Shown: positions 8,621 through 33,854 of the stretch, piece after piece
Position numbering within the stretch: position 1 is the stretch's first letter
Layout: each line of letters opens with the position of its first letter
NCBI GenBank assembly: GCA_027620815.1
Contig: JAQCDH010000002.1
Coordinates: 1-45,541, forward strand
Length of the DNA: 45,541 bases
Origin: Bacillota bacterium
GTDB lineage: Bacteria; Bacillota_I; Bacilli_A; Acholeplasmatales; Acholeplasmataceae
Reading direction: 5' to 3'
Position numbers and translations under genes: made by a program
Notes under the pieces: generated by a model
Seen by the model: the letters and a program-made list of their open reading frames with translations, nothing else
What the model was told of the DNA's origin: nothing
Databases searched by the model: none

Positions 8621-11600
8621 TTATGGTAACAATCCGAGTAAACTATCAATAATACCAGAATCTAATTCTTCAAGTAGTTGTAGAATTGCTGCATCATTCA
8701 CATCATTTTCATCAAGTCCTGTTATAACAGCTTGTAGACTTGTCACATCTGTAATGTTAAGTAATTCAACTGCTTCTATCACTGCTAAAATTTCTTCTTG
8801 AGTAATTTCACCAGTTACTGCTAATACTTCATTAGGAATCGCAACAGATTGTTGATTTTGAATGAGACCATCAATAACAGCGTATAAGTATGCTGAGGCT
8901 AAGACAGTTTCTCTTTCAGCAGGAGTTAATGCTGTAAAGACTTCAAATGAGAAATCAAGTTCATCTATTGTTGTAATTTCAAGGACAGCAAACGCTTCAA
9001 CAAGATTTCTTAATTCTTCAGCAGTTAATCTTCTTTGACCATCCACAACAACAAAGCTATCTGATGGTAAGTTAAATGACTCTGGTGTTTCACTAAATAA
9101 GTCTAATACTGCTTCAGATAAGAAGAGTCTTGAAAGTTTTTCTCTTAAGTAACTTGATGCTAAGAAACGATCTAAGTCATCTTCGTTTGTATCTGCATTG
9201 ATGTTTTCACCAATTAAATCAGTAATGAAATTAAAGACATTTTCATCAAGTGCTGTTGGATCAACTGGAACATACGTCACTGCAGTTAATAATGCTTTAA
9301 GTTCTGCTCTTGAAATATATTCGACACTAAATCCTTCGTCAGCTTTAAGATCACTTGGAACGCCTAAATCAACATTACCAAATAAATCTACAAGCGCTTC
9401 TGGTAAGAAAGGTAATAAGACATCATCTAAGTTTTCATTATCTAAGTATTGACCAATCACTGTGTATACAATATTTGAATTTAAGATGACATCAATACGT
9501 TGATTTTCAAAATCATCTGTGACTGCATAGCCTCTTAATAATCCGAGTGCAGTTGTAATACTTGGTGATTCTACTAAGTCTGCCATCATCTGTCTTACTG
9601 TGTCTATATCCATGAGTCCTAAGACATACAAGACATCTGCAAGTGCTTCAAGTTCAGAAACAAGAACAAATCCATTTGCATCTAATAATGTAGCATCAAG
9701 TTCAACGAATGTTGAAGGGACAGTTGCGATATCTTGACGATCATTTGCAACTTTAATTGCGTATGCTTGTAGTGCTTCATTTTGAATGGCATTCGATGCA
9801 TAACTCATTAAGATATTAGAATCAAATAAGACATCTAACTCTCCAGCTGCATATAAATCATCTAATGTATTAAAGGTAAATAATCCATTAGAGTTTAAGA
9901 AAACATCTGCAATATCTCTTAACGTTAATAATTCTGAAGCAAGTAATACTTTATTTGCATCAAGTGCATTTTCACTTAATACGAATAATGAACTTTCAAG
10001 TGGAACGTTATTGAGTAAATCGCTATCAATTGCAACAAATTCTCTTGCAATTTCAATGACTGTGTCAAGCACACTATATGGCTGGTAAGAGACATTGAGT
10101 AATTTATCAGCAACAGCAACAATAAAGTCTGATTCTAAAATAAATTCTAAGTTTGTTTTTCCATCAGTTCCTACCAAGTCTAAAACTTCAATGAAGTCAT
10201 TTAATCCTGCTAAATCTAATGTGTATTGATTTTCTGAGAAATCAATTCTTAAACCAGCAAGTATCAATGCTTCCAAGTCATCACTGTTCATAATAAACAT
10301 ATCATATTCAGTACTGAACGTAAATAATCCATATTTAGGAGATGTGAAGTCTAAGAAACGACCATCGATATCAAGTGATGCTTCAAAGAGTGTAACTGCG
10401 AAATCATTTGCAACGTTTGCTAACATGTTTCTATTGAGTGAACTTGTTAAGAAGTTAGATACAACGCCTAATACGATTTCAGATTCAGCAAGTAATGCAA
10501 CATCTGCTGGATCTACTGCTCTAACGAGACCAGCAAATTCTGCGACTTCTTCAACAGTTCTTTCTAGGAATAAATCTCTAACAATATTTAAACCAGAAGC
10601 ATCTTTAACATCAACTAAGATCGAAATAAGAGGTTTTAATAACGCTTGTAACGAATTATTTTTTAACGTATTATTTTCTATAATATTTGCAGGTAATTCT
10701 AATTCATATCCATAGACATTTTCAACAATGAGTTGTCCTAGTTCAAATAATTTTAATGCAGATGCTCTAAAGATTTCAGAATCATCTAATACACCAAATG
10801 TTTGATTAAATACAACTGGATCATTAAATGGATCAATCACATCTAGTGATAATGTTCTAAAGCTTGAATTTGTAAATTCAGTGACTTTGTTTGAAGAAAG
10901 TTCAATATTTTCATTGAGTGCACCCGCAAATGCAATGACAAACTTCACAAGTCTGTTATATTCTGCTGTCCATGCAACACCAGATGCAAATTGTACTTCA
11001 AGTGATGCTGGTACATCAAAATACAATCTTAATGCTGGCATATCTTCTACCATTAACATGAGTTGTTTAAAGTTTGCTACAAGTAATTTAGAATATGTAT
11101 TGCCTTCTTCAGCAACCATGAAGTTTTCAAATGCAGCACTTGTTAATAGTGGACCAAAATCTAATCCTTCAACGCCTAAAACTTCATTTGTTTCTTCATG
11201 TAAATAATGTGAAGTTGCATACACAAGATTTAAGGCAACACCTAATTCATAAGCTGCATCAAAATCTTGTGGAACAACAACATTCGCTGCTCCTAAATTA
11301 TTAAGTGCTTCTAAGAACAATGAACGGTCTAACGCTTGAACGAGTTGTAATGATGTTAATCTTTGTACAACAATTGTTGCATCCGCAGCTGATAAGCTAC
11401 CAAATGCATTTCCTGCTGCAGCTAAGTTTTCTAAGCTTAAATCTTGAGAAATGGTATATAGTCCTTCAAGCGATGTAAATTTGTACCCAACTTCAACAAC
11501 ATCGAGTAAGGTTAGGATTTCTTGAATGACATTAATACTTACTTCAGTTCCTAAAATAGGTTCAACAAGTGTATTTAATGTATGGTCTGCAGTAGCGACT

Positions 11601-14600
11601 AAAATTTGTGAGTTTGCAACAATTCCACCAACCACAAGTTTCAATGTACCAACGTTTGGTCCTAAAATATCATCAACAAGGGCAAGTGTGTCAACTAGTT
11701 CTCCACCTGTAGATGCGAGTGCATCTTCAAGTCCCCAGAATGATAACTCATAATAGCCTGCTGCGAGTTCAGCTACTGTTAAAAATAATGTTACAAGTAC
11801 ATTATATTCAGCAGCCCACGCGGCACTTTCAGGACTTGATGCAAGTAATACTTCAGGAACAATAATCGTTTCATCTAAGCCTGCTTCAATAAGTGCAGAT
11901 TCAATAGAGTATGCTAAATTTGGAACGAGTAATTGTGAGTTTAATGTGCCCTCTTGAACAAGTAATAATCCTGCAAGTGCATCACTCAATAATAACTCCG
12001 TAAAATCAACATCTTCAATTGGCGTTAATCCTGGTTCCATGTTTTCATGTAAGTATGCAGACATTCCGTATACTAAATTAAATAAGAATTCAACTTCAAG
12101 TGCAGCATCAAAACTTGCAGGAACATAAACGTTTTCAACACCTAAGAAAGCAAGAAGACTTTCTGTGTTTGCTTGATCAAGTGCTCCTAAAAGTTGTAAA
12201 TCTTTAAGTGCTGCAATGAGTGTTCCAAATTCAGTTGGTGTTAATGAACCAAATGCATAACCAAGGTTTGCTGATCCTCTTAAGTCTAATGCCTCAGTTG
12301 CACCTAGAAGTCCTTCTAATGTTGTAAATTCCGAAGTCACAACAAGAATATCAAGTAACGTATCAACCTCAGCTGCAAGATCAAGTGCGAGTGCACCTGT
12401 GTTATCTGCAAGTAATGTTAACAATAACGCTTGAGTATCTGCGTCTTCAACAACAAAAGGTAGGACATCTTCGAAGTTGTTTCCAACTTGTTCAATGAGT
12501 TGAGACTCAGAAAGTAAGGTATTAAGTGCGCTTCTTAATGATGCAAGATCTGCTTCATTTGCTAGAACATCGTCTATGAATGCAACTGCATCTGTTTCAC
12601 CAGATGTAAGATCTAAAATATCTTGAAGTGTTGCAAAATCATAAACATCTTCTAAAACATCAAGTAATGTATTAAGTTCTTGACCTAAGTCAATGGTCAA
12701 TCCATTTTCATCAAATAATAATGTGTCTAATAAATCTTTTGTTTCTTGATCTTCAACAAATGCATCAAGTAATACAGGTGCTGCTTCATTGAGTGCTGCA
12801 TTGACTAAAACTGAATCGTCAAATACATATCCAACAAGTAGGCGTACAGTTGGTAGGTTATTTTGAGCGACACGGTCTACAAATTCAATCACATCTTCGT
12901 TACCAGCAAGTAATTCATTCGCTGTTAACGTAACAAGTGCTCCAAAGATTTGTCCAAAGGTATCAAATTCAGCATCAAAATCTAAATTATTAACAGTCTC
13001 ATTTAAAGCTTCATCAAGTTCAGCTGCAACATCAGCGTCAAATGCACTGTATAATGCAAAGTCAACTGCTGTAGGAAGTAATGCTGAAACGATTTCAACT
13101 TGTGTGACTTCATCTAATGTTGCATTTAAGAAATCTTCACCATCTTCAGTGAGTAATGCATCAAGTGCGTCTTCTTCAAGAAGTTGAGCAACACTAAATG
13201 AACCATACTGAGATAATACAACTTCTAATAAGTCTGCAATATTGTAAAGATCACCATTTTCTCCATAGAAGAATTCTGTGTCGTTTAAAACTTCAGCGAG
13301 TGCATCTTTTAAATATGCTTCGCGTTCAGCAACTGGTAACCATTCGATATTTGCTTGAACATCTTCAAGTTCTAAGACGTATTCTAAACCTACGTTTGCA
13401 ACTTTAATGAGTTGTAAGTCAGCAAGTGCTCTTAAGACATCAGCAAGTGCAGTTGCTTGTGCATTGGTTAAATCAGCAAGTGCTTGAGTATCTTCAGCAA
13501 GTGCCAAGACGTCTTCTAAGTCTCCTACTGCAACAACTTTTTCAAAAATAATACCTAATGCTGCAAGTTCTAACTTCCAGTCAATGTCAGCAAGTTCAGC
13601 AAGTGCTGCTTGTGTTGCTGCACCATCAGATAACTCTAATCCAGTAAGCTCTTCGAGTAAACCATCCGCTGCAAGATCAGATCCCACTTCTAAGAATGAA
13701 ATAAGAACACCTGAATCACCAACAAGTCCTAAAATGTCTTGAACGGCTTCAACATCATCACTACTTAAAGTGTTGACATCAAAATTCTCTGATAAATAAC
13801 CAGCTTCATAAGCACTTTGTACAATATCAGTAACAACATTTAGCTCATCGCGTAAATTAAAGTTTTGAGTTTCTGTTAACTCTGTCTCAAATACCCAATC
13901 AAATAATCCTTCTTGAATTCCAGCAAATACCGGTCTCACTTGTAGTGGTTCAATAAGTTCATGTGCATCTACTTCACCAAAAACATCCCCACCATCTTCG
14001 AAATTTAAATTATTGGTAGTGGATGCTAAAACGACAAGTGGTAATAATAAGAAAATCGCAGTAATAAATCCACGGACAGCACCAAATGCTCCACCGATTA
14101 AACGATCGGTAGATTTTTTAATGACTTTCGCATGAATAACAGGATTTTTAATGGTTTCAGCACCATTATTTTCTTTATCTTTTTCAGTCGCAAACGTAAC
14201 ACTTTCAACTTTGAATACTTTTTGTACATGTTTTTCTAAAACATATTTGTAAAGTAATCCAAACCCAACGAAGGAAATAAACCAACGTACGACAGTGTAT
14301 AAAACTAAGAATGTAACAATTCTTACAAAGACATCAACAAGTCCATAAAGTAATGTAATCACTTCTGTTCTTGTTAAATAAGCAAGTAGTTCTGTTGATA
14401 CAGTACCTGATAAGTTTGCTTCAATTTGAGCAATCAAATCTGCTTGTGGTAATGAATTCACAACAGAAACTCCTGATACAATCCATAAAATGATAAATGA
14501 TAAAATAATGTTGACGAGTGTAAAATATCCTGATTTTGCCGCTCCTCTAAAATATCCAAGAGCAAAATGTAGCAATACAAAAAGGATAATCACACCCCAT

Positions 14601-14614
14601 TGAAATAATTGCAT
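8621..14614 (-). CDS. Giant (1997 aa) CvpA-like membrane-anchored acidic repeat protein
   Basis: Residues ~1-205 have several hydrophobic helices and a CvpA-like pattern (LGYFRGAAKSGYFTLVNIILSFII...; STDRLIGGAFGAVRGFITAIFLLLPLVV); the remainder is an Ala/Leu/Asp/Glu-rich degenerate repeat region. SD-like AGGAAAGG upstream. Confidence 0.8.
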   Translation of the reverse strand: MQLFQWGVIILFVLLHFALGYFRGAAKSGYFTLVNIILSFIILWIVSGVSVVNSLPQADLIAQIEANLSGTVSTELLAYLTRTEVITLLYGLVDVFVRIVTFLVLYTVVRWFISFVGFGLLYKYVLEKHVQKVFKVESVTFATEKDKENNGAETIKNPVIHAKVIKKSTDRLIGGAFGAVRGFITAIFLLLPLVVLASTTNNLNFEDGGDVFGEVDAHELIEPLQVRPVFAGIQEGLFDWVFETELTETQNFNLRDELNVVTDIVQSAYEAGYLSENFDVNTLSSDDVEAVQDILGLVGDSGVLISFLEVGSDLAADGLLEELTGLELSDGAATQAALAELADIDWKLELAALGIIFEKVVAVGDLEDVLALAEDTQALADLTNAQATALADVLRALADLQLIKVANVGLEYVLELEDVQANIEWLPVAEREAYLKDALAEVLNDTEFFYGENGDLYNIADLLEVVLSQYGSFSVAQLLEEDALDALLTEDGEDFLNATLDEVTQVEIVSALLPTAVDFALYSAFDADVAAELDEALNETVNNLDFDAEFDTFGQIFGALVTLTANELLAGNEDVIEFVDRVAQNNLPTVRLLVGYVFDDSVLVNAALNEAAPVLLDAFVEDQETKDLLDTLLFDENGLTIDLGQELNTLLDVLEDVYDFATLQDILDLTSGETDAVAFIDDVLANEADLASLRSALNTLLSESQLIEQVGNNFEDVLPFVVEDADTQALLLTLLADNTGALALDLAAEVDTLLDILVVTSEFTTLEGLLGATEALDLRGSANLGYAFGSLTPTEFGTLIAALKDLQLLGALDQANTESLLAFLGVENVYVPASFDAALEVEFLFNLVYGMSAYLHENMEPGLTPIEDVDFTELLLSDALAGLLLVQEGTLNSQLLVPNLAYSIESALIEAGLDETIIVPEVLLASSPESAAWAAEYNVLVTLFLTVAELAAGYYELSFWGLEDALASTGGELVDTLALVDDILGPNVGTLKLVVGGIVANSQILVATADHTLNTLVEPILGTEVSINVIQEILTLLDVVEVGYKFTSLEGLYTISQDLSLENLAAAGNAFGSLSAADATIVVQRLTSLQLVQALDRSLFLEALNNLGAANVVVPQDFDAAYELGVALNLVYATSHYLHEETNEVLGVEGLDFGPLLTSAAFENFMVAEEGNTYSKLLVANFKQLMLMVEDMPALRLYFDVPASLEVQFASGVAWTAEYNRLVKFVIAFAGALNENIELSSNKVTEFTNSSFRTLSLDVIDPFNDPVVFNQTFGVLDDSEIFRASALKLFELGQLIVENVYGYELELPANIIENNTLKNNSLQALLKPLISILVDVKDASGLNIVRDLFLERTVEEVAEFAGLVRAVDPADVALLAESEIVLGVVSNFLTSSLNRNMLANVANDFAVTLFEASLDIDGRFLDFTSPKYGLFTFSTEYDMFIMNSDDLEALILAGLRIDFSENQYTLDLAGLNDFIEVLDLVGTDGKTNLEFILESDFIVAVADKLLNVSYQPYSVLDTVIEIAREFVAIDSDLLNNVPLESSLFVLSENALDANKVLLASELLTLRDIADVFLNSNGLFTFNTLDDLYAAGELDVLFDSNILMSYASNAIQNEALQAYAIKVANDRQDIATVPSTFVELDATLLDANGFVLVSELEALADVLYVLGLMDIDTVRQMMADLVESPSITTALGLLRGYAVTDDFENQRIDVILNSNIVYTVIGQYLDNENLDDVLLPFLPEALVDLFGNVDLGVPSDLKADEGFSVEYISRAELKALLTAVTYVPVDPTALDENVFNFITDLIGENINADTNEDDLDRFLASSYLREKLSRLFLSEAVLDLFSETPESFNLPSDSFVVVDGQRRLTAEELRNLVEAFAVLEITTIDELDFSFEVFTALTPAERETVLASAYLYAVIDGLIQNQQSVAIPNEVLAVTGEITQEEILAVIEAVELLNITDVTSLQAVITGLDENDVNDAAILQLLEELDSGIIDSLLGLLP

Positions 14615-25728: not shown

Positions 25729-27597
25729 TCAAACGCTCTTATCTTTGTTTTTCACTTCATTGTAAACCTGATACGCTTCTTGTATCAATGGTAAGTTTTC
25801 AATATAGTCAATATGCTTAAAAGGTGGTTGTCCACTTTGTATAAGACCTAGCATATCACCAGGACCTCTTGTATATAAATCATGTTCACTAATTTCAAAA
25901 CCACTCGATGTATTTTCTAAGATGATAAATCGTTGATCTTGAGGTTTTTTTGAAATGAGATAACAAATACCTTTTAATTGGCCTCTTCCAAGTCGACCTC
26001 TTAATTGATGAAGTTGAGATAATCCAAAATATTCAGCTTCTAAAATTAGCATAAACGTTGCTGTTTTTATATCGACACCTACTTCAATCATTTGTGTCGA
26101 GATCAAAATGCCTTTGTTTTGTTTTCTAAACGTATCCATAACACGTTGTTGTTCTAATTTTGACATTTGCCCATGTAAAACATACACATCTTCTTGAAAT
26201 CTTTCTTTAAAAACATGATAGGTATGCATGATGTTATACGTCACTTTATCGCTATCAATGGCAGGAACAACGATAAAGATATGTTGATGATGTTCTAGTG
26301 CAAGTTGAAGTTGGTCCATGATCTTTAAGAGTGCATCATAAGAAACACTAATGGTTTTAATGGTTTGTTTTCCTTTGGGTTGTGAATGAAGAGTATATAT
26401 TTTTGCATCCCCTAAAATACTTCTAAGTAATGTTCTTGGAATCGGAGTTGCAGTTAGATACACCACATCTTGATCTAATGCTTTTTCAATGAGACTTTTT
26501 CTAATGTCAACGCCAAACTTTTGTTGCTCATCAATGATAACGAGTCCGAGTTTATGAAATGAAACAGAGGGAGACGCTAAGATATGTGTCCCAATAATAA
26601 GATCAACTTGACCTTGTGCAATATCATTTTCAACTTCTTTTTTAAGTTCAATAGTAGAAGTAATGAACGTGACTTTGATTTCTTTAAATAGTGATCTAAC
26701 TGTTTCTAAATGTTGTCTAGCAAGAATTTCTGTCGGTACCATAAATGCAACTTGATAACCTTGCGCAATATAATAGTAGGCAATGAGTAATGCTACGACG
26801 GTTTTCCCTGAACCGACATCACCTTGAATGAGATGTTTAAGTGGAACATCCTCTTTTGCATCTTTTAAAACATTTAAAATGATACTTTCTTGATCTTCTG
26901 TGAGTTGAAAAGGAAGACTTGATGATTGATCTTTGATTGAAAATGGTTGATTGAAATGAAGGTGTTGTCTTTTCTTTTGTTTTGAAACACCTTCAAAAAG
27001 ATGAAACAATTCTTCAAGTTTAAATCGCTTTAATGAGGCTTCAACTTCTTCTTCGTTTTTAGGGAAGTGAATTCCTTGATACGCTTGATGGATTGGGATG
27101 ATCTTAAGTTTGTCTAAAACTTCTTTAGAAATGGTTTCTTTAATAGGTGATTCTAGTAGTGTTTGTAAAATATTTTGAAGTCGATAATTGGGAAGATCGT
27201 TTAAATCATAATCCGCAACCATTTGATTTTCTAATCGAACTGGTTTGAGTTGTGATACAATAAATATCTTTTTTTTAGCATCAAAATTTCCTTTTACAAG
27301 ATAAGACGCGCCAACTTCTAAAACATGTTTTAAATAAGGTTGTTGATAGGCAATACAAGACAAAATTTGACCTTCTACTTCTAATTTAAAACTTATTTTA
27401 AGGACTTGGTGTCGTGATAAAAGAGGAGGTTTCATCAACTTCCCCTTTTTAATATGCTCGATATCATCTAAAAAATAGTGAACATATCTTTTAGGAAATA
27501 TTTGTAGGATATGGTCACTTGTTGTAACACCATGGCGTTGAAGTGCTTCTAATGTTTTAGGTCCAACACCTTTGATGTCTTTAATGTTGATTGTCAT
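25729..27597 (-). CDS. recG: ATP-dependent DNA helicase RecG
   Basis: MTINIKDIKGVGPKTLEAL start at 27597; LIQGDVGSGKTVVALL, IIDEQQKFGV, LTATPIPRTLLRSI, QLRGRLGRGQ. Confidence 0.95.
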   Translation of the reverse strand: MTINIKDIKGVGPKTLEALQRHGVTTSDHILQIFPKRYVHYFLDDIEHIKKGKLMKPPLLSRHQVLKISFKLEVEGQILSCIAYQQPYLKHVLEVGASYLVKGNFDAKKKIFIVSQLKPVRLENQMVADYDLNDLPNYRLQNILQTLLESPIKETISKEVLDKLKIIPIHQAYQGIHFPKNEEEVEASLKRFKLEELFHLFEGVSKQKKRQHLHFNQPFSIKDQSSSLPFQLTEDQESIILNVLKDAKEDVPLKHLIQGDVGSGKTVVALLIAYYYIAQGYQVAFMVPTEILARQHLETVRSLFKEIKVTFITSTIELKKEVENDIAQGQVDLIIGTHILASPSVSFHKLGLVIIDEQQKFGVDIRKSLIEKALDQDVVYLTATPIPRTLLRSILGDAKIYTLHSQPKGKQTIKTISVSYDALLKIMDQLQLALEHHQHIFIVVPAIDSDKVTYNIMHTYHVFKERFQEDVYVLHGQMSKLEQQRVMDTFRKQNKGILISTQMIEVGVDIKTATFMLILEAEYFGLSQLHQLRGRLGRGQLKGICYLISKKPQDQRFIILENTSSGFEISEHDLYTRGPGDMLGLIQSGQPPFKHIDYIENLPLIQEAYQVYNEVKNKDKSV

Positions 27598-28576
27598 ACA
27601 TCCTTTGAAGTAAATACATGTCTGCAAGGACACATGCAACTGTATTTTCTATCACGATACCTACGCGTCTCGCAATAGCAACATCGTGTCTTCCGTTTGC
27701 TTTTAGTGGTTCAATTGTACCTTCATTAAATTGATAGGTTTCTTGAGTTTTTTGTATGGATGATGTTGGTTTAACGAAAACATGAATGACTAATGGATTC
27801 CCATTAGAAATGCCACCAGTCACACCACCGCTATGGTTGGTTTTTGTTGTTCCTAAATCATCAATAATCACATCATTAAAAGCACTGCCTTTCGCTTCTA
27901 TTAAATCAAGGGTATCTCCAAAGCTTACAAGTTTCACCGCTGGAATTGACATGAGTAGTTGGGTGATGGTTGCATCTAATTTATAAAACATCGGTTCACC
28001 GAGTCCTACCGGAATATGATCGATGGTAAGTTTAATCATCCCACCAACAGAATCACCTTCTTCTCCAATTGACGTTAAATACGCGTCAAATTTCTTTGGA
28101 TCTTTACACGTTCCTAATGATACAAGCTCATGTTTCATACTAAAAGGAATCATCATTTTAGCAACCGATCCCGCTGCAACAAGGGCTGCTGTTAATCGTC
28201 CTGAAAAACGACCTCCACCTCTATAGTCATGAAATCCATTGTATTTTTTCATAGCAACAAAATCGGCATGACCAGGTCTAGGATGTGTTTTTAAATGTTC
28301 GTAATCTTTTGAAATGACATCTTTATTTTCAATCATGATGTGAACGGGTGACCCAGTAGCAACTCCAGAAAATACACCTGACGTGATCTTAAATTCATCT
28401 TTTTCTTGTCTTGCTGTTGTTCCTATTGCACCTGGACGTCTTAATGTTAAATCGTCTTGAATGCGTTTTTCATCAATTTTAGTACCAGGTAACACACCAT
28501 CAACAACAACACCAATCGCATCTTGATGGGATTCACCATATAATGTAACTTGAAATATTTTTCCAAAAGTATTCAT
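27581..28576 (-). CDS. aroC: Chorismate synthase
   Basis: YGESHQDAIGVVVDGVLPG, RPGHADFVAMKKY, RGGGRFSGRLTAALVAAGS, SGGVTGGISNGNP. Confidence 0.96.
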   Translation of the reverse strand: MNTFGKIFQVTLYGESHQDAIGVVVDGVLPGTKIDEKRIQDDLTLRRPGAIGTTARQEKDEFKITSGVFSGVATGSPVHIMIENKDVISKDYEHLKTHPRPGHADFVAMKKYNGFHDYRGGGRFSGRLTAALVAAGSVAKMMIPFSMKHELVSLGTCKDPKKFDAYLTSIGEEGDSVGGMIKLTIDHIPVGLGEPMFYKLDATITQLLMSIPAVKLVSFGDTLDLIEAKGSAFNDVIIDDLGTTKTNHSGGVTGGISNGNPLVIHVFVKPTSSIQKTQETYQFNEGTIEPLKANGRHDVAIARRVGIVIENTVACVLADMYLLQRMYDNQH

Positions 28577-29344
28577 TTATAATACTCCTTTCATCTTTTC
28601 AACGAGGATTTCTACATGCTTAATTTTTTGATTTAAAAATAATTCAAAACTTTGTATCGCTTGAAAAATTAACATGAGTTTTCCATCATAAGCATGTTTA
28701 CCTAATGACATCACATGTGTTTTTTGATGATACATCAAATCAATTACCACTTCAGGTTGACACCCTTGGTCTTTTAAACGAGAGATAAATGCTTCATCAA
28801 AATCGTGACTTGTTGCTTGAATGATGATGTTACATTTAAGAAGTGCATCATCACTATAATTCTTTTCAATTGGTGAAATAGACTCTTTAAGTGAGTTTGA
28901 CCTTTTGAATATGGTAGGTGTGATGTGTTGGTTTTGACAAACATGATATACAGATTTTGCAGCGCCACCATTTCCTAAAATACAGACGTGTTGATGATTT
29001 AAGGTAATTGAAGCATGTTTTAGTAATTGCAAAAACCCGTAAGCATCGGTGTTATCTCCAATCATTTTTTGATCCCTTACATAAATCGTATTAACGGATC
29101 CAATTTTTTTCGCAGTTTCTGTGAGTTCATCACAAAAATCCATCACAACTTCTTTGTAGGGTTTAGTAACTTGAAGTCCATCAAGTAAGCCCTCTTTAAG
29201 AAGCAGAATATAGTTGTTGATTTCATCTTTTTCAATATCAAAAAGGTCATAAGAAAGTTCAATTCCTGTATGTTCTTTTATGCGTTTAAAGATCATTGGT
29301 GACTTACTATAACTAATATCTTTTCCTAATAATCCATATTTCAT
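28577..29344 (-). CDS. aroE: Shikimate dehydrogenase
   Basis: GLLGKDISYSKSPMIF, GLQVTKPYKE, NTDAYGFLQLL, ILGNGGAAKSVYHV. Confidence 0.94.
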   Translation of the reverse strand: MKYGLLGKDISYSKSPMIFKRIKEHTGIELSYDLFDIEKDEINNYILLLKEGLLDGLQVTKPYKEVVMDFCDELTETAKKIGSVNTIYVRDQKMIGDNTDAYGFLQLLKHASITLNHQHVCILGNGGAAKSVYHVCQNQHITPTIFKRSNSLKESISPIEKNYSDDALLKCNIIIQATSHDFDEAFISRLKDQGCQPEVVIDLMYHQKTHVMSLGKHAYDGKLMLIFQAIQSFELFLNQKIKHVEILVEKMKGVL

Positions 29345-29595
29345 TTTTGATAATCCTTAGAAACACGCATGAGTGTCTCAAAAAGTTCAATGATATAAGG
29401 CTCAAGCTTTTTATTGTGAAGCCGGTCTTTGACACGTGAAAACACAATCGCTTCTCTATTGGTATCTAAGACATGGATATGATTGTGTTTTTTTAACTCC
29501 CCAATGTCTTTAACAAGCGCCATGCGTGATTCAAAGAGCGCAATGATTTGATCATCAATAGCATCAATTTTTGATCTTAACGTTTCAAGATTCAT
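29341..29595 (-). CDS. Chorismate mutase, AroQ class (monofunctional, 84 aa)
   Basis: LRSKIDAIDDQIIALFESRMALVKDIGELKK typical N-terminal helix; located inside the aromatic cluster. Confidence 0.9.
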   Translation of the reverse strand: MNLETLRSKIDAIDDQIIALFESRMALVKDIGELKKHNHIHVLDTNREAIVFSRVKDRLHNKKLEPYIIELFETLMRVSKDYQK

Positions 29596-30826
29596 GAATA
29601 TGTCCTCCTAAAGACTTGAATACATCATAAAATTCAGGATATGATTTTCTAACTGCTTCTGCTTGCGTTAATGTAATAGTTCCTTCTGCACGTATGGATG
29701 CGATAGCGATTGCCATTGCGATGCGGTGATCATCTTCACTCGATAGGATGATATTACCTTTAAATGAACGAACGCCTTCAATTTCTAATATATGATTTTC
29801 ATATATGGTTTTCACGCCTAATTGATGAAGAATATGAATCATGATTTGAAGACGGTCAGATTCTTTATATTTGAGTCTTTCAACATTAGAAAACCGTGTT
29901 TTTCCTTTCGATAATGCTGCAAGTATCATAAGGATTGGTCCTAAATCAGGAATGTCTTTTAAATCGATGTGAATACCTGAAGTATCCGATGGTGATGAGA
30001 AAATCCCTTCTTCAGACCATGTGAGATTCCCACCCATTTCAAGAAGGATATCAATGATTTTTTGATCACCTTGTTTAGAATGTGGTTGGATTCCTTTTAC
30101 ATAAACCTGTTTTCCAATGAGACCTGCGACTAAAAAAAATGCTGCTTGTGAGTAATCACCCTCAATCGTGATTGAAGAAGCTTGATACTGTTGACCTTGA
30201 GAAATGAGATAAGAATTGTTATGTTTCTTTACTAAAACACCAAAATGTTTCATCACGTCAATCGTCATCTCAATATAAGATTCTGAGGTGATTTCATTCA
30301 TCACCTTGATTTCAACATCTTTATTTAAAAGCGGACTCATCATTAATAACCCTGATATAAATTGGGAGCTTTTAGAACCATCGACATGAAAGATTTGATC
30401 TTTGATGGGACCACTCACTTCAATTTGTTCATGATTAAGACGCTTCAATTGATTTTCAAATAATGTTTCATAAACATCTAATGGACGTTCAAATAACCTT
30501 TTAATACCACTAAAAATCACACGATCAAATAACGCCATCGCAATTGGAATGAGCATACGAAGTGTTGACCCTGACGCGTAACAATGAATCGGTGTTTGAT
30601 CATATATCCACTGTTCTGTCTCTACAACATGATTGTTTATGGTGACGCCAAAATGTTTCAAAGCTTCTTGAGTTGCATACACATCTTCAGAATATGGCAT
30701 ATTGATGATTTGAGAGTACCCTTTTGCAAGACTTGAAACAATAAGTGCACGATGTGCATACGATTTAGAGGTAATGATATCAAGTTCACCTGTCAGTGGT
30801 GTTGGTTTAAATACAACTGTTTTCAT
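29585..30826 (-). CDS. aroA: 3-phosphoshikimate 1-carboxyvinyltransferase (EPSP synthase)
   Basis: SKSYAHRALIVSSLAKG, SGSTLRMLIPIA, DIPDLGPILMILAALSKG, ERLKYKESDRLQ, DDHRIAMAIAIASI. Confidence 0.94.
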   Translation of the reverse strand: MKTVVFKPTPLTGELDIITSKSYAHRALIVSSLAKGYSQIINMPYSEDVYATQEALKHFGVTINNHVVETEQWIYDQTPIHCYASGSTLRMLIPIAMALFDRVIFSGIKRLFERPLDVYETLFENQLKRLNHEQIEVSGPIKDQIFHVDGSKSSQFISGLLMMSPLLNKDVEIKVMNEITSESYIEMTIDVMKHFGVLVKKHNNSYLISQGQQYQASSITIEGDYSQAAFFLVAGLIGKQVYVKGIQPHSKQGDQKIIDILLEMGGNLTWSEEGIFSSPSDTSGIHIDLKDIPDLGPILMILAALSKGKTRFSNVERLKYKESDRLQIMIHILHQLGVKTIYENHILEIEGVRSFKGNIILSSEDDHRIAMAIAIASIRAEGTITLTQAEAVRKSYPEFYDVFKSLGGHIHES

Positions 30827-31806
30827 AATCGGTGAATAACAGGTATTCCGATATCTTTAATACAAACAAATCGTAACCCATCTTTCCGTTGTTTTTTATC
30901 TATACGCATATATGTTTCATAAACAGAAACATCTTCAATGTTAATATCTAATAACTGATACTTATGAAGGATATGAGAAACCTCAACTTTTACATATGGT
31001 GCTGTGATATTGAGCTCAATTCCTTTATCAACTGCATATAACATGCCATGACTAATGGCTTCACCATGTTTGATACCTTTATAGTTCGTGTGTTTTTCAA
31101 TAGCATGTCCAAGTGTATGACCGAAATTTAAAAACATACGTTCATTGTTTTCAAATGGATCTTTTTTAACAATATCTATTTTGACTTTTAAAGCTTTAGA
31201 AATCACTTCAATATGGTCATGATCGTTGAGTTTTAATAATTCAAACAAGGTTTTATCCCCAATAAGAGCAGCTTTAATGATCTCGGCATACCCATTATTA
31301 AGTTCTCTTTTTGATAATGTCGTTAAAAACTTTAAATGAATAAACACATATGTTGGCTCATAAAATTGACCAATTAAATTTTTACCTTGTTTTGTATTAA
31401 TCCCTACTTTAGAGCCAATTGAACTATCTACCATCGAAAGAAGGGTGGTTGGAACTTGGATCAAATCAATTCCGCGTAGTAACGTAGATGCAACAAACCC
31501 TGTAAGGTCACCGACAACACCACCACCTAACGCAACAATGACATCATCTCTTTTGATGTGTTGGCTTAAAAAGTCATCACACACCTTTTCATACGTTTCA
31601 AGGGATTTTGACGTTTCGCCAGGTTGAATGATATGTATATAAACGTCAAATTCCTTTTTTAAACTCATGAAAACATCGTTATGTAAATCATATACATGTG
31701 TATCTGTAACAACAAAAACACGTGAATACTCACGTAACTTTTCATAAAGAGGTAAAAAATCTCCTTTAGAAAGATGAATATCATAATTAAGATCATGAAG
31801 GGTCAT
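30823..31806 (-). CDS. aroB: 3-dehydroquinate synthase
   Basis: DVIVALGGGVVGDLTGFVASTLLRGIDLIQVPTTLLSMVDSSIGSKVGINTKQGKNLIGQFYEP; track start at 31830 is a GTG, ATG at 31806 has a nearby GAAAGG. Confidence 0.95.
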   Translation of the reverse strand: MTLHDLNYDIHLSKGDFLPLYEKLREYSRVFVVTDTHVYDLHNDVFMSLKKEFDVYIHIIQPGETSKSLETYEKVCDDFLSQHIKRDDVIVALGGGVVGDLTGFVASTLLRGIDLIQVPTTLLSMVDSSIGSKVGINTKQGKNLIGQFYEPTYVFIHLKFLTTLSKRELNNGYAEIIKAALIGDKTLFELLKLNDHDHIEVISKALKVKIDIVKKDPFENNERMFLNFGHTLGHAIEKHTNYKGIKHGEAISHGMLYAVDKGIELNITAPYVKVEVSHILHKYQLLDINIEDVSVYETYMRIDKKQRKDGLRFVCIKDIGIPVIHRL

Positions 31807-32626
31807 GTTCAAATGCCTTTCTTTTTTCACGAGATGTTTTAAGTAATTCTTCTAATGTTTTGGTGTCTTGATTGATAATTGCATCTTCGATTTTTAAAAG
31901 TTGATCTTTAAACTGTTGAATAGCTTCTAATAAATACGTTTGATTACTTAAAAAAAGTTCCGACCAAAGCGTTTCATTGATATGAGCAATGCGTGTTAAA
32001 TCTCTAAATGAGTCACCAGTAAACTCACGTGAAACATCTTCATGTCCTAGCATCAGACTAACCGCGATGACGTGTGTGAGTTGAGACGTGTATGCAATCA
32101 TTTGATCATGTTTTTCTGCAGATATTTTAGTGATGGTTTTAAATCCTAGTTGTTTTCCGATAATTTCTAAAAGTTCATAATCTGAAAGGGTTGCACGTTT
32201 GGATTCAATAATTAAAAAGTGATTGTTTAAAAACATATTTGGGTCTCTAAAATCATATCCTTTTTTTGCGCGTCCAGCCATAGGGTGATGAGAAACAAAA
32301 TGAATATTTTCTCTTATTAATGATTCAATTTGAGAAACGATCGTTTCTTTAACACCAGAAATATCAGTTAAAAGCACCCCTTTTTTAAAAAGGTGAAGGT
32401 GATCTTTCACAAAAGTGACATTTTGCTTAGGATACATTGCTAAAATAACAACATCAGCGAGTGATAGTAGTGACAAATTCGATGTTTCTAAAATGACACC
32501 ATCTTTTTCAGCTTGAAAGACGTTTGCTTTATTCACATCATAGCCATACACTTGATGACCTTTTAATGTTAATTTTTCAGCATAAGATGCACCCATTAAC
32601 CCTAAACCAACAACAAATATTTTCAT
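31793..32626 (-). CDS. tyrA: Prephenate dehydrogenase (no obvious ACT domain)
   Basis: IFVVGLGLMGASYAEKLTLKGHQVYGYD, HHPMAGRAKKGYDFRDPNMFLNNHFLI, LTHVIAVSLM. Confidence 0.93.
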   Translation of the reverse strand: MKIFVVGLGLMGASYAEKLTLKGHQVYGYDVNKANVFQAEKDGVILETSNLSLLSLADVVILAMYPKQNVTFVKDHLHLFKKGVLLTDISGVKETIVSQIESLIRENIHFVSHHPMAGRAKKGYDFRDPNMFLNNHFLIIESKRATLSDYELLEIIGKQLGFKTITKISAEKHDQMIAYTSQLTHVIAVSLMLGHEDVSREFTGDSFRDLTRIAHINETLWSELFLSNQTYLLEAIQQFKDQLLKIEDAIINQDTKTLEELLKTSREKRKAFEHDPS

Positions 32627-33642
32627 TGCTTTAATGTATCTATTAATGTTTTTAATTGATGAATTTTATGCATCATTGAAAGATATTTATCGAGTTTTAA
32701 TGATTGCGCACCGTCACTGTAGGCAATTTCTGGTTGTGGATGAATTTCTACAATTAGTCCATCTGAACCGACTGCAACACTTGCGAGTGATAAATCTTCA
32801 ATCATTGAGTATTTACCAGCTGCATGTGAAGGGTCTACAATAATTGGTAAATGTGAAAGTTCTTTAACAGCTAAAACTGAACTAATATCTAATGTATTTC
32901 TTGTATATTTTTCAAATGTACGAATGCCACGTTCACATAAAATGACAGCTTCATTCCCACCAGCCATAATGTATTCTGCTGACATTAACCATTCTTCAAT
33001 GGTTGCTGATAATCCTCTTTTTAATAATACTGGTTTTCTAGATTTACCTAGTGCTTTAAGTAGCTGAAAGTTTTGCATGTTTCTTGCACCAATTTGAATA
33101 ATATCTACATATTTTTCAAAATCTGCTAAATCTTCTGAAGACATGATTTCACTAACAACTTTTAATCCGACTTGATCGGCAACACGTCTAAGCATTTTAA
33201 GTCCTTCTAATCCATGTCCTTGAAAACTATATGGAGATGTTCTAGGTTTAAAAGCACCACCTCTTAAAATCGTTCCACCACCTTCTTTGACTACAATTGC
33301 AGTTTGAAGGAGTAGTGGTTCAGTTTCAACTGAACATGGACCTGCCATCATTTGAAAATGCCCACCACCGATTTTAATACCATCGCCTAAATCTACAATC
33401 GTATCTTCTTTTTTAAAACTTCTACTTGCTTTTTTAAAAGGTGTTTGAACACGAGTCACTCTGTAAACACCATCATAAGCATACATGTCGCGTTCGTCTA
33501 AAATTGCGGTATCACCAAGTACACCAAAAACAATGACTTTATCAGAGGAAACATCTTTAATTTCATAGCCTTTTTTGATTAAATCTTGGGTGATTTTATT
33601 GTATTGTTCTTTGGTTGCACCTTGTTTTAACTGGATAATCAT
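32623..33642 (-). CDS. aroF: 3-deoxy-7-phosphoheptulonate (DAHP) synthase with N-terminal ferredoxin-like domain
   Basis: N-terminal ~90 aa FL domain, MMAGPCSVETEPLLLQTA, RGGAFKPRTSPYSFQGHGLEGL, IVDPSHAAGKYSMI. Confidence 0.95.
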   Translation of the reverse strand: MIIQLKQGATKEQYNKITQDLIKKGYEIKDVSSDKVIVFGVLGDTAILDERDMYAYDGVYRVTRVQTPFKKASRSFKKEDTIVDLGDGIKIGGGHFQMMAGPCSVETEPLLLQTAIVVKEGGGTILRGGAFKPRTSPYSFQGHGLEGLKMLRRVADQVGLKVVSEIMSSEDLADFEKYVDIIQIGARNMQNFQLLKALGKSRKPVLLKRGLSATIEEWLMSAEYIMAGGNEAVILCERGIRTFEKYTRNTLDISSVLAVKELSHLPIIVDPSHAAGKYSMIEDLSLASVAVGSDGLIVEIHPQPEIAYSDGAQSLKLDKYLSMMHKIHQLKTLIDTLKQ

Positions 33643-33663: not shown

Positions 33664-33692
33664 AAAAAAATTCCTGGACCATCCAAGAATTT
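33664..33692 (-). terminator. Attenuator terminator in the aroF leader
   Basis: Minus strand AAATTCTTGGA-TGG-TCCAGGAATTT + T run: 11-bp stem (one G.U), located between leader peptide and aroF SD. Confidence 0.85.
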
Positions 33693-33728
33693 ATTGTCAT
33701 TTTTGGCGTCCTTTGTATATCAACATAA

Positions 33729-33756
33729 AAGGAATGCCTCGTTTAGACAATTCCTT
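33729..33756 (-). promoter_or_regulatory. Leader hairpin (putative 1:2 segment) of the aromatic attenuator
   Basis: AAGGAAT ... ATTCCTT, 7-bp stem, beginning within the leader-peptide stop codon. Confidence 0.6.
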
Positions 33757-33796
33757 ACATAAAATATGCGTAATAATAAGTTTGTTTTGTTGACAT
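33755..33796 (-). CDS. Tyrosine-rich attenuation leader peptide MSTKQTYYYAYFM
   Basis: ATG TCA ACA AAA CAA ACT TAT TAT TAC GCA TAT TTT ATG TAA; SD GAGG at 33808..33805, 8-nt spacer; precedes hairpins and terminator upstream of aroF/tyrA. Confidence 0.85.
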   Translation of the reverse strand: MSTKQTYYYAYFM

Positions 33797-33825
33797 AAAA
33801 ACGACCTCATATGGTGTTTGTTTAA

Positions 33826-33854
33826 ATCTTATCACAATCCTGAATGAAATACAA
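33826..33854 (-). promoter_or_regulatory. Candidate promoter of the aromatic operon leader
   Basis: Minus strand TTGTAT (33854..33849) - 17 nt - TAAGAT (33831..33826) with TGn extension; ~30 nt upstream of the leader ATG. Confidence 0.6.

Follow-up and report, generated by a model that had tools for sequence, protein, structure and literature searches.

The stretch of DNA analysed here (the window, 45,541 nucleotides from a bacterium of the order Acholeplasmatales) carries ahead of aroF, on the minus strand, what is probably a transcription attenuator of the ribosome-mediated kind, with charged tRNA-Tyr as its signal and with aroF-tyrA and the shikimate genes under its control. The support is direct for the open reading frame (ORF) of the leader, the conservation of its Tyr codons, the spacing between codons and helices, the covariation that links B with C, C with E and D with E, and the upkeep of A:B. 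What appears to be new is that the amino acid sensed by a published motif should be corrected to tyrosine, and that the switch seems to be wired differently from the textbook one.

The leader and its distribution

The promoter, Shine-Dalgarno sequence, Tyr-rich ORF, early hairpin, terminator and aroF start described in the first-pass annotation were all located in the sequence as claimed. The features of the leader and operon are as follows.

33854-33849, minus strand: putative -35 element TTGTAT; a similar TTGTA/TTGT...TGTGATAnnnT spacing is seen in relatives
33831-33826, minus strand: putative extended -10 element TGA-TAAGAT; a -10 of the TGTGATA type recurs in relatives
33808-33805, minus strand: leader Shine-Dalgarno GAGG; an SD-like AGG is present in nearly all of 54 leaders
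33796-33755, minus strand: leader ORF MSTKQTYYYAYFM*, 13 codons
33745..33756, minus strand: segment A, AAGGAATTGTCT, overlapping the leader stop; pairs with B
33728..33738, minus strand: segment B, GGCATTCCTTT, nearly invariant across relatives; pairs with A or C
33705..33714, minus strand: segment C, AAAGGACGCC; partner of B or, as antiterminator, of the loop and 3' arm of the terminator
33682..33692, minus strand: segment D, the terminator 5' arm
33668..33678, minus strand: segment E, the terminator 3' arm; its first bases and the loop (33681-33676) pair with C
33670-33664, minus strand: terminator U-run (T7)
32623..33642, minus strand: aroF, DAHP synthase, first gene of the operon, with its ATG at 33642
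31793..32626, minus strand: tyrA, prephenate dehydrogenase-like, overlapping aroF (function from sequence inspection and gene order)
27581..31830, minus strand: aroB, aroA, a chorismate mutase domain, aroE and aroC (names from sequence inspection)

The candidate promoter has a spacer of 17 nt between -35 and -10 and starts 11 nt from the end of rlmH (33865). The codons of the leader are ATG TCA ACA AAA CAA ACT TAT TAT TAC GCA TAT TTT ATG TAA, with the Tyr codons at 33778-33770 and 33766-33764 and a single Phe codon, TTT. The early hairpin, AAGGAATTGTCT/GAGGCATTCCTT, begins in the leader stop codon and extends from 33756 to about 33728, and the intrinsic terminator, AAATTCTTGGA-TGG-TCCAGGAATTT, occupies 33692-33668. 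Stretches of six codons with at least four Tyr occurred 12 times among the 61,207 scanned in six frames, so the Tyr cluster in one sequence alone is not decisive; its conservation is.

A covariance model of the leader (R1) gave matches in 57 of 160 genomes of the order. Leaving out a weak match in G081 and second matches in G078 and G079, the true element is present in about 50 genomes of the order, always upstream of aroF, while some members carry aroF without it. The weak matches read outside aroF were mostly T-box terminators (L126-L130, L138); L131 is a tRNA region and L139 an unrelated terminator. Among those from the order, six proved to be a T-box terminator or a tRNA region. A class-wide sample of 395 genomes added four true elements upstream of aroF, L134-L137, all from one other family (f16), which show the same Tyr-leader architecture outside the order. 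In the resulting collection of 54 distinct leaders the mini-ORF, the hairpins and the terminator recur without exception. The comparison of aroF leaders proposed earlier as a check shows the Tyr run in every one of the 54. A second ORF, starting from an ATG after C, was rejected as its frame is not conserved.

Helices, spacing and the proposed switch

We compared the strength of each duplex within one leader with its strength between leaders, using 28 representatives with distinct terminators and 5000 permutations. These swap tests are alignment-free; they replaced column-based pair counting because C and E of divergent leaders were shifted out of their columns in the model alignment. The terminator, D:E, gave a z of -11.9. 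Pairing of C with the terminator loop and 3' arm (C:E) gave -5.2 (0 of 5000), and -5.3 with about one leader per genus, with covarying cores that include GGAAC:GUUCC, GGAC:GUCC, GGAGAU:AUCUCC, GGAAG:CUUCC, GGAAU:AUUCC, GGAAA:UUUCC and GGGGA:UCCCC. The leader therefore has both a terminator and a mutually exclusive antiterminator, as a leader-peptide attenuator should. The pairing of GGCATTCCTTT with AAAGGACGCC (B:C), noticed earlier as a competitor, is backed by a z of -4.2 (0 of 5000; -2.7 with about one leader per genus). Control pairings were not significant (C:D +0.3, A:C +0.3, A:LE -1.2, B:D -1.0). The complementarity of A and B is kept in 28 of 28 representatives, with a Stouffer z of -17.9 against shuffled A; the swap test (z -0.6) has no power here, as B is nearly invariant, and A:B therefore rests on this maintained complementarity.

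Two other pairings were considered and rejected. The first-pass annotation had also seen AGGAATT:AATTCTT (A:D) as a competitor, but it has a z of +1.5 and we rejected it as the antiterminator, the swap tests identifying C:E in that role. C:D has no swap support either, though L137 may use it. A small hairpin of the AUGA...UCAU type lies between C and D (33704-33693 in the window; swap z -3.6) and abuts the terminator in many relatives, where it would perhaps bring C near E.

As A:B excludes B:C, B:C excludes C:E and C:E excludes D:E, the leader has two states: A:B with C:E, which is read through, and B:C with D:E, which terminates. The spacing suggests which ribosome position goes with which state. 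Counting downstream from the first Tyr codon, the pairing of A begins after 19-26 nt in 53 of 54 leaders, and the leader stop comes after 15-24 nt in 51. Assuming that the edge of the ribosome reaches about 13 nt past the A-site codon (edges of 10-16 nt change the results little), a ribosome stalled at Tyr leaves A exposed, while one at the stop hides it.

Partition-function folding of the 54 leaders with ribosome masking gave a similar picture. With a ribosome at the stop, B:C passed 0.5 in 50 leaders, and A:B never did so. With a ribosome at the first Tyr codon, A:B formed in all 54 before C was transcribed, and at equilibrium with C present A:B remained above B:C in 39. With no ribosome, A:B was computed to be above B:C in 49. 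The trp-like masking by a stalled ribosome that the first-pass annotation had in mind was not recovered, A being left free at the first Tyr codon. In the window A:B and B:C are nearly balanced (-9.9 and -9.8 kcal/mol), and the equilibrium with C present and a ribosome at the first Tyr codon favours B:C (0.73, against 0.04 for A:B), so the model depends on A:B forming first, as the RNA is being made. Similarly, C:E (-8.0 kcal/mol) is weaker than D:E (-10.3 kcal/mol) and must win kinetically.

When tyrosine is ample, the leading ribosome would pass the Tyr run and sit at the leader stop, covering A, so that B would pair with C, the terminator D:E would form and transcription would end. When tyrosine is short, the ribosome would stall at the first Tyr codons, well upstream of A, which would be free to pair with B and leave C unpaired; C would then capture the loop of the terminator and the start of E as they emerge, blocking D:E and allowing the operon to be transcribed. 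In this scheme it is an inference that the leader is translated, that transcription and translation are coupled, that C:E and D:E compete kinetically and that the operon responds to tyrosine.

The overall anatomy resembles that of E. coli trpL and pheL, where a short translated leader carrying cognate codons likewise controls a terminator. There the first segment is covered when the ribosome stalls, and RNA that is not being translated terminates. The first-pass annotation had assumed this logic, with a stalled ribosome masking the 5' segment and freeing an antiterminator formed by A:D or B:C, but we consider it improbable here. Although AGGAATT can pair with AATTCTT in the genus of the window, A:D lacks swap support, B:C overlaps neither D nor E and so cannot be the antiterminator, and the covarying competitor of D:E is C:E. 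By the spacing and the masked folding, stalling would occur at too great a distance upstream for the ribosome to cover either stem, and an untranslated leader is predicted to read through rather than terminate. We therefore favour, on balance, an inverted wiring of a Tyr-only attenuator, in which it is the finishing ribosome that masks the first of four alternating helices and an untranslated leader leaves the operon on. The more general part of the earlier reading, a Tyr-rich leader of the translated type that precedes aroF-tyrA and combines a terminator with alternative RNA structures, seems sound, being supported by conservation and swap tests.

Three of the four f16 leaders (L134, L135 and L136) have displaced stops and fit the inverted wiring only partly. 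In L135 and L136 the ORF extends across A and B, and its stop immediately precedes C; a finishing ribosome would cover C directly, which would still lead to termination. The stop of L134, within the A:B loop, is left unaccounted for by the model.

Tyrosine as the probable sensed amino acid

Over the nine codons that start with the first Tyr, 53 of 54 leaders have at least three Tyr codons; the remaining leader has two. Tyr makes up 30.5% of all leader residues. Phe is absent from these nine codons in 43 of 54 leaders, and Trp was not found in the first 26 leader tails examined. The number and order of the Tyr codons vary (YAYTY, YRYH, YSYY, YYYYY) and the peptide is otherwise not conserved. 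A short ORF with a Shine-Dalgarno sequence and a run of codons for the amino acid of its own pathway is what characterises a leader-peptide attenuator, and on the basis of its codons the element is very probably a tyrosine leader that does not sense phenylalanine. The first-pass annotation had allowed for both amino acids; its tyrosine part is upheld in all 54 leaders, its phenylalanine part is not.

The element had been called hidden, but it seems to have been in print since 2021 as uORFC-13-1, a motif of 24 sequences found upstream of aroF only and suggested to have a role with phenylalanine (PMC8632094). Like that motif, it lies upstream of aroF in Acholeplasma-type bacteria and has a promoter, a Shine-Dalgarno sequence and a uORF directly before an intrinsic terminator. 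Judged by gene, clade and layout, it is very probably a member. Phe codons were a suggestion about function in that report, not a sequence criterion, and they are missing from the run in most of our leaders.

That the uORF senses phenylalanine, or aromatic amino acids generally, as suggested for uORFC-13-1, seems very unlikely. The published description has a U-run encoding at least one Phe (PMC8632094), and the leader in the window has its one TTT. The invariant U-run is, however, segment B; in 52 of 54 leaders it comes after the stop codon of the leader, and it may be the source of the published phenylalanine reading. In Corynebacterium glutamicum the Phe-Tyr-Phe leader of aroR-aroF (Neshat 2014) answers to phenylalanine and not tyrosine, according to a review (PMC11802643), but in our set it is Phe that is usually absent from the run and Tyr that is always present.

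The pathway context also points to tyrosine. The gene downstream of aroF is tyrA in 29 of 30 loci checked. A corresponding Phe leader on pheA, a separate gene for prephenate dehydratase, was considered and rejected, as 20 upstream regions read held no comparable leader. Several near-complete genomes that bear the leader, such as G006, G012, G019 and G030, lack prephenate dehydratase, which argues against phenylalanine sensing and suggests that their pathway ends at tyrosine. A missing phenylalanine branch is valid as an explanation for some relatives only, and was rejected as a general one because the genome of the window encodes prephenate dehydratase (G000:C30).

In a sister family a T-box seems to play the corresponding part for phenylalanine. 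In three of its genomes (G042, G053 and G049, with leaders L040, L041 and L042 in that order) a copy of aroF is preceded by a T-box and followed by prephenate dehydratase. The specifier region of the two T-boxes that could be aligned (L040 and L041) is GAA-UUC-A, in which we read a Phe codon. With a Tyr leader on aroF-tyrA and a Phe-type T-box on aroF-prephenate dehydratase, each branch would seem to have a sensor of its own. The leader in the window is not itself explained by a T-box or another riboswitch, a possibility raised by the first-pass annotation: Rfam 15 gave no match in the window at gathering score, including to the T-box model RF00230, which also failed to match leaders L002, L005, L010 and L024. 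As the genome of the window has three T-box matches, the leader is not a substitute forced by a lack of T-boxes. A T-box-like leader below the Rfam cut-off (L128, G028:C77) stands before an apparent tyrS, so the tyrosine genes of one clade may use both a T-box and a leader peptide.

The leader is short, and its C-terminal Tyr cluster is conserved and keeps a constant distance from the stop. This could also recall nascent-peptide arrest, in which, as with TnaC or SpeFL, a peptide containing YYY would detect free tyrosine inside the ribosome tunnel, but such arrest is highly improbable, because the peptide outside the Tyr run is unconserved and the varied number and order of Tyr are what codon counting predicts.

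Relation to known systems

The likeness to uORFC-13-1 lies in the clade (Acholeplasma), the gene and a uORF with promoter and Shine-Dalgarno sequence at an intrinsic terminator. In the published description (PMC8632094) the motif has one extra unnamed stem, whereas we find, in 54 leaders, tyrosine codons, four mutually exclusive helices, a spacing logic and a second family outside the order. We found no further mention of uORFC-13-1 in the literature searched beyond that report. The nearest experimental case is the C. glutamicum aroR-aroF leader, which shares leader-peptide attenuation of a DAHP synthase gene but belongs to an actinobacterium and responds to phenylalanine only (PMC11802643); we do not claim homology. 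Candidate his leader-peptide attenuators have been described in Firmicutes (PMC9413887), in low-GC Gram-positive relatives that also use T-boxes, but these concern histidine and other orders.

T-boxes themselves likewise place amino-acid genes of the same genomes under the control of tRNA charging, but the element in the window is an ORF-bearing leader and not a tRNA-binding RNA. We know of no leader-peptide attenuator dedicated to tyrosine that has been shown experimentally, and our literature searches found none. The analysis thus gives an orphan motif a corrected amino acid and a concrete, testable mechanism. That mechanism implies that leading ribosomes closely trail RNA polymerase in this Mollicutes lineage, which matters because transcription-translation coupling is disputed in Gram-positive relatives and these cells have T-boxes as well.

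Elsewhere in the window, positions 8621-14614 of the minus strand encode an acidic, repetitive protein of 1997 amino acids with an N-terminal membrane segment.
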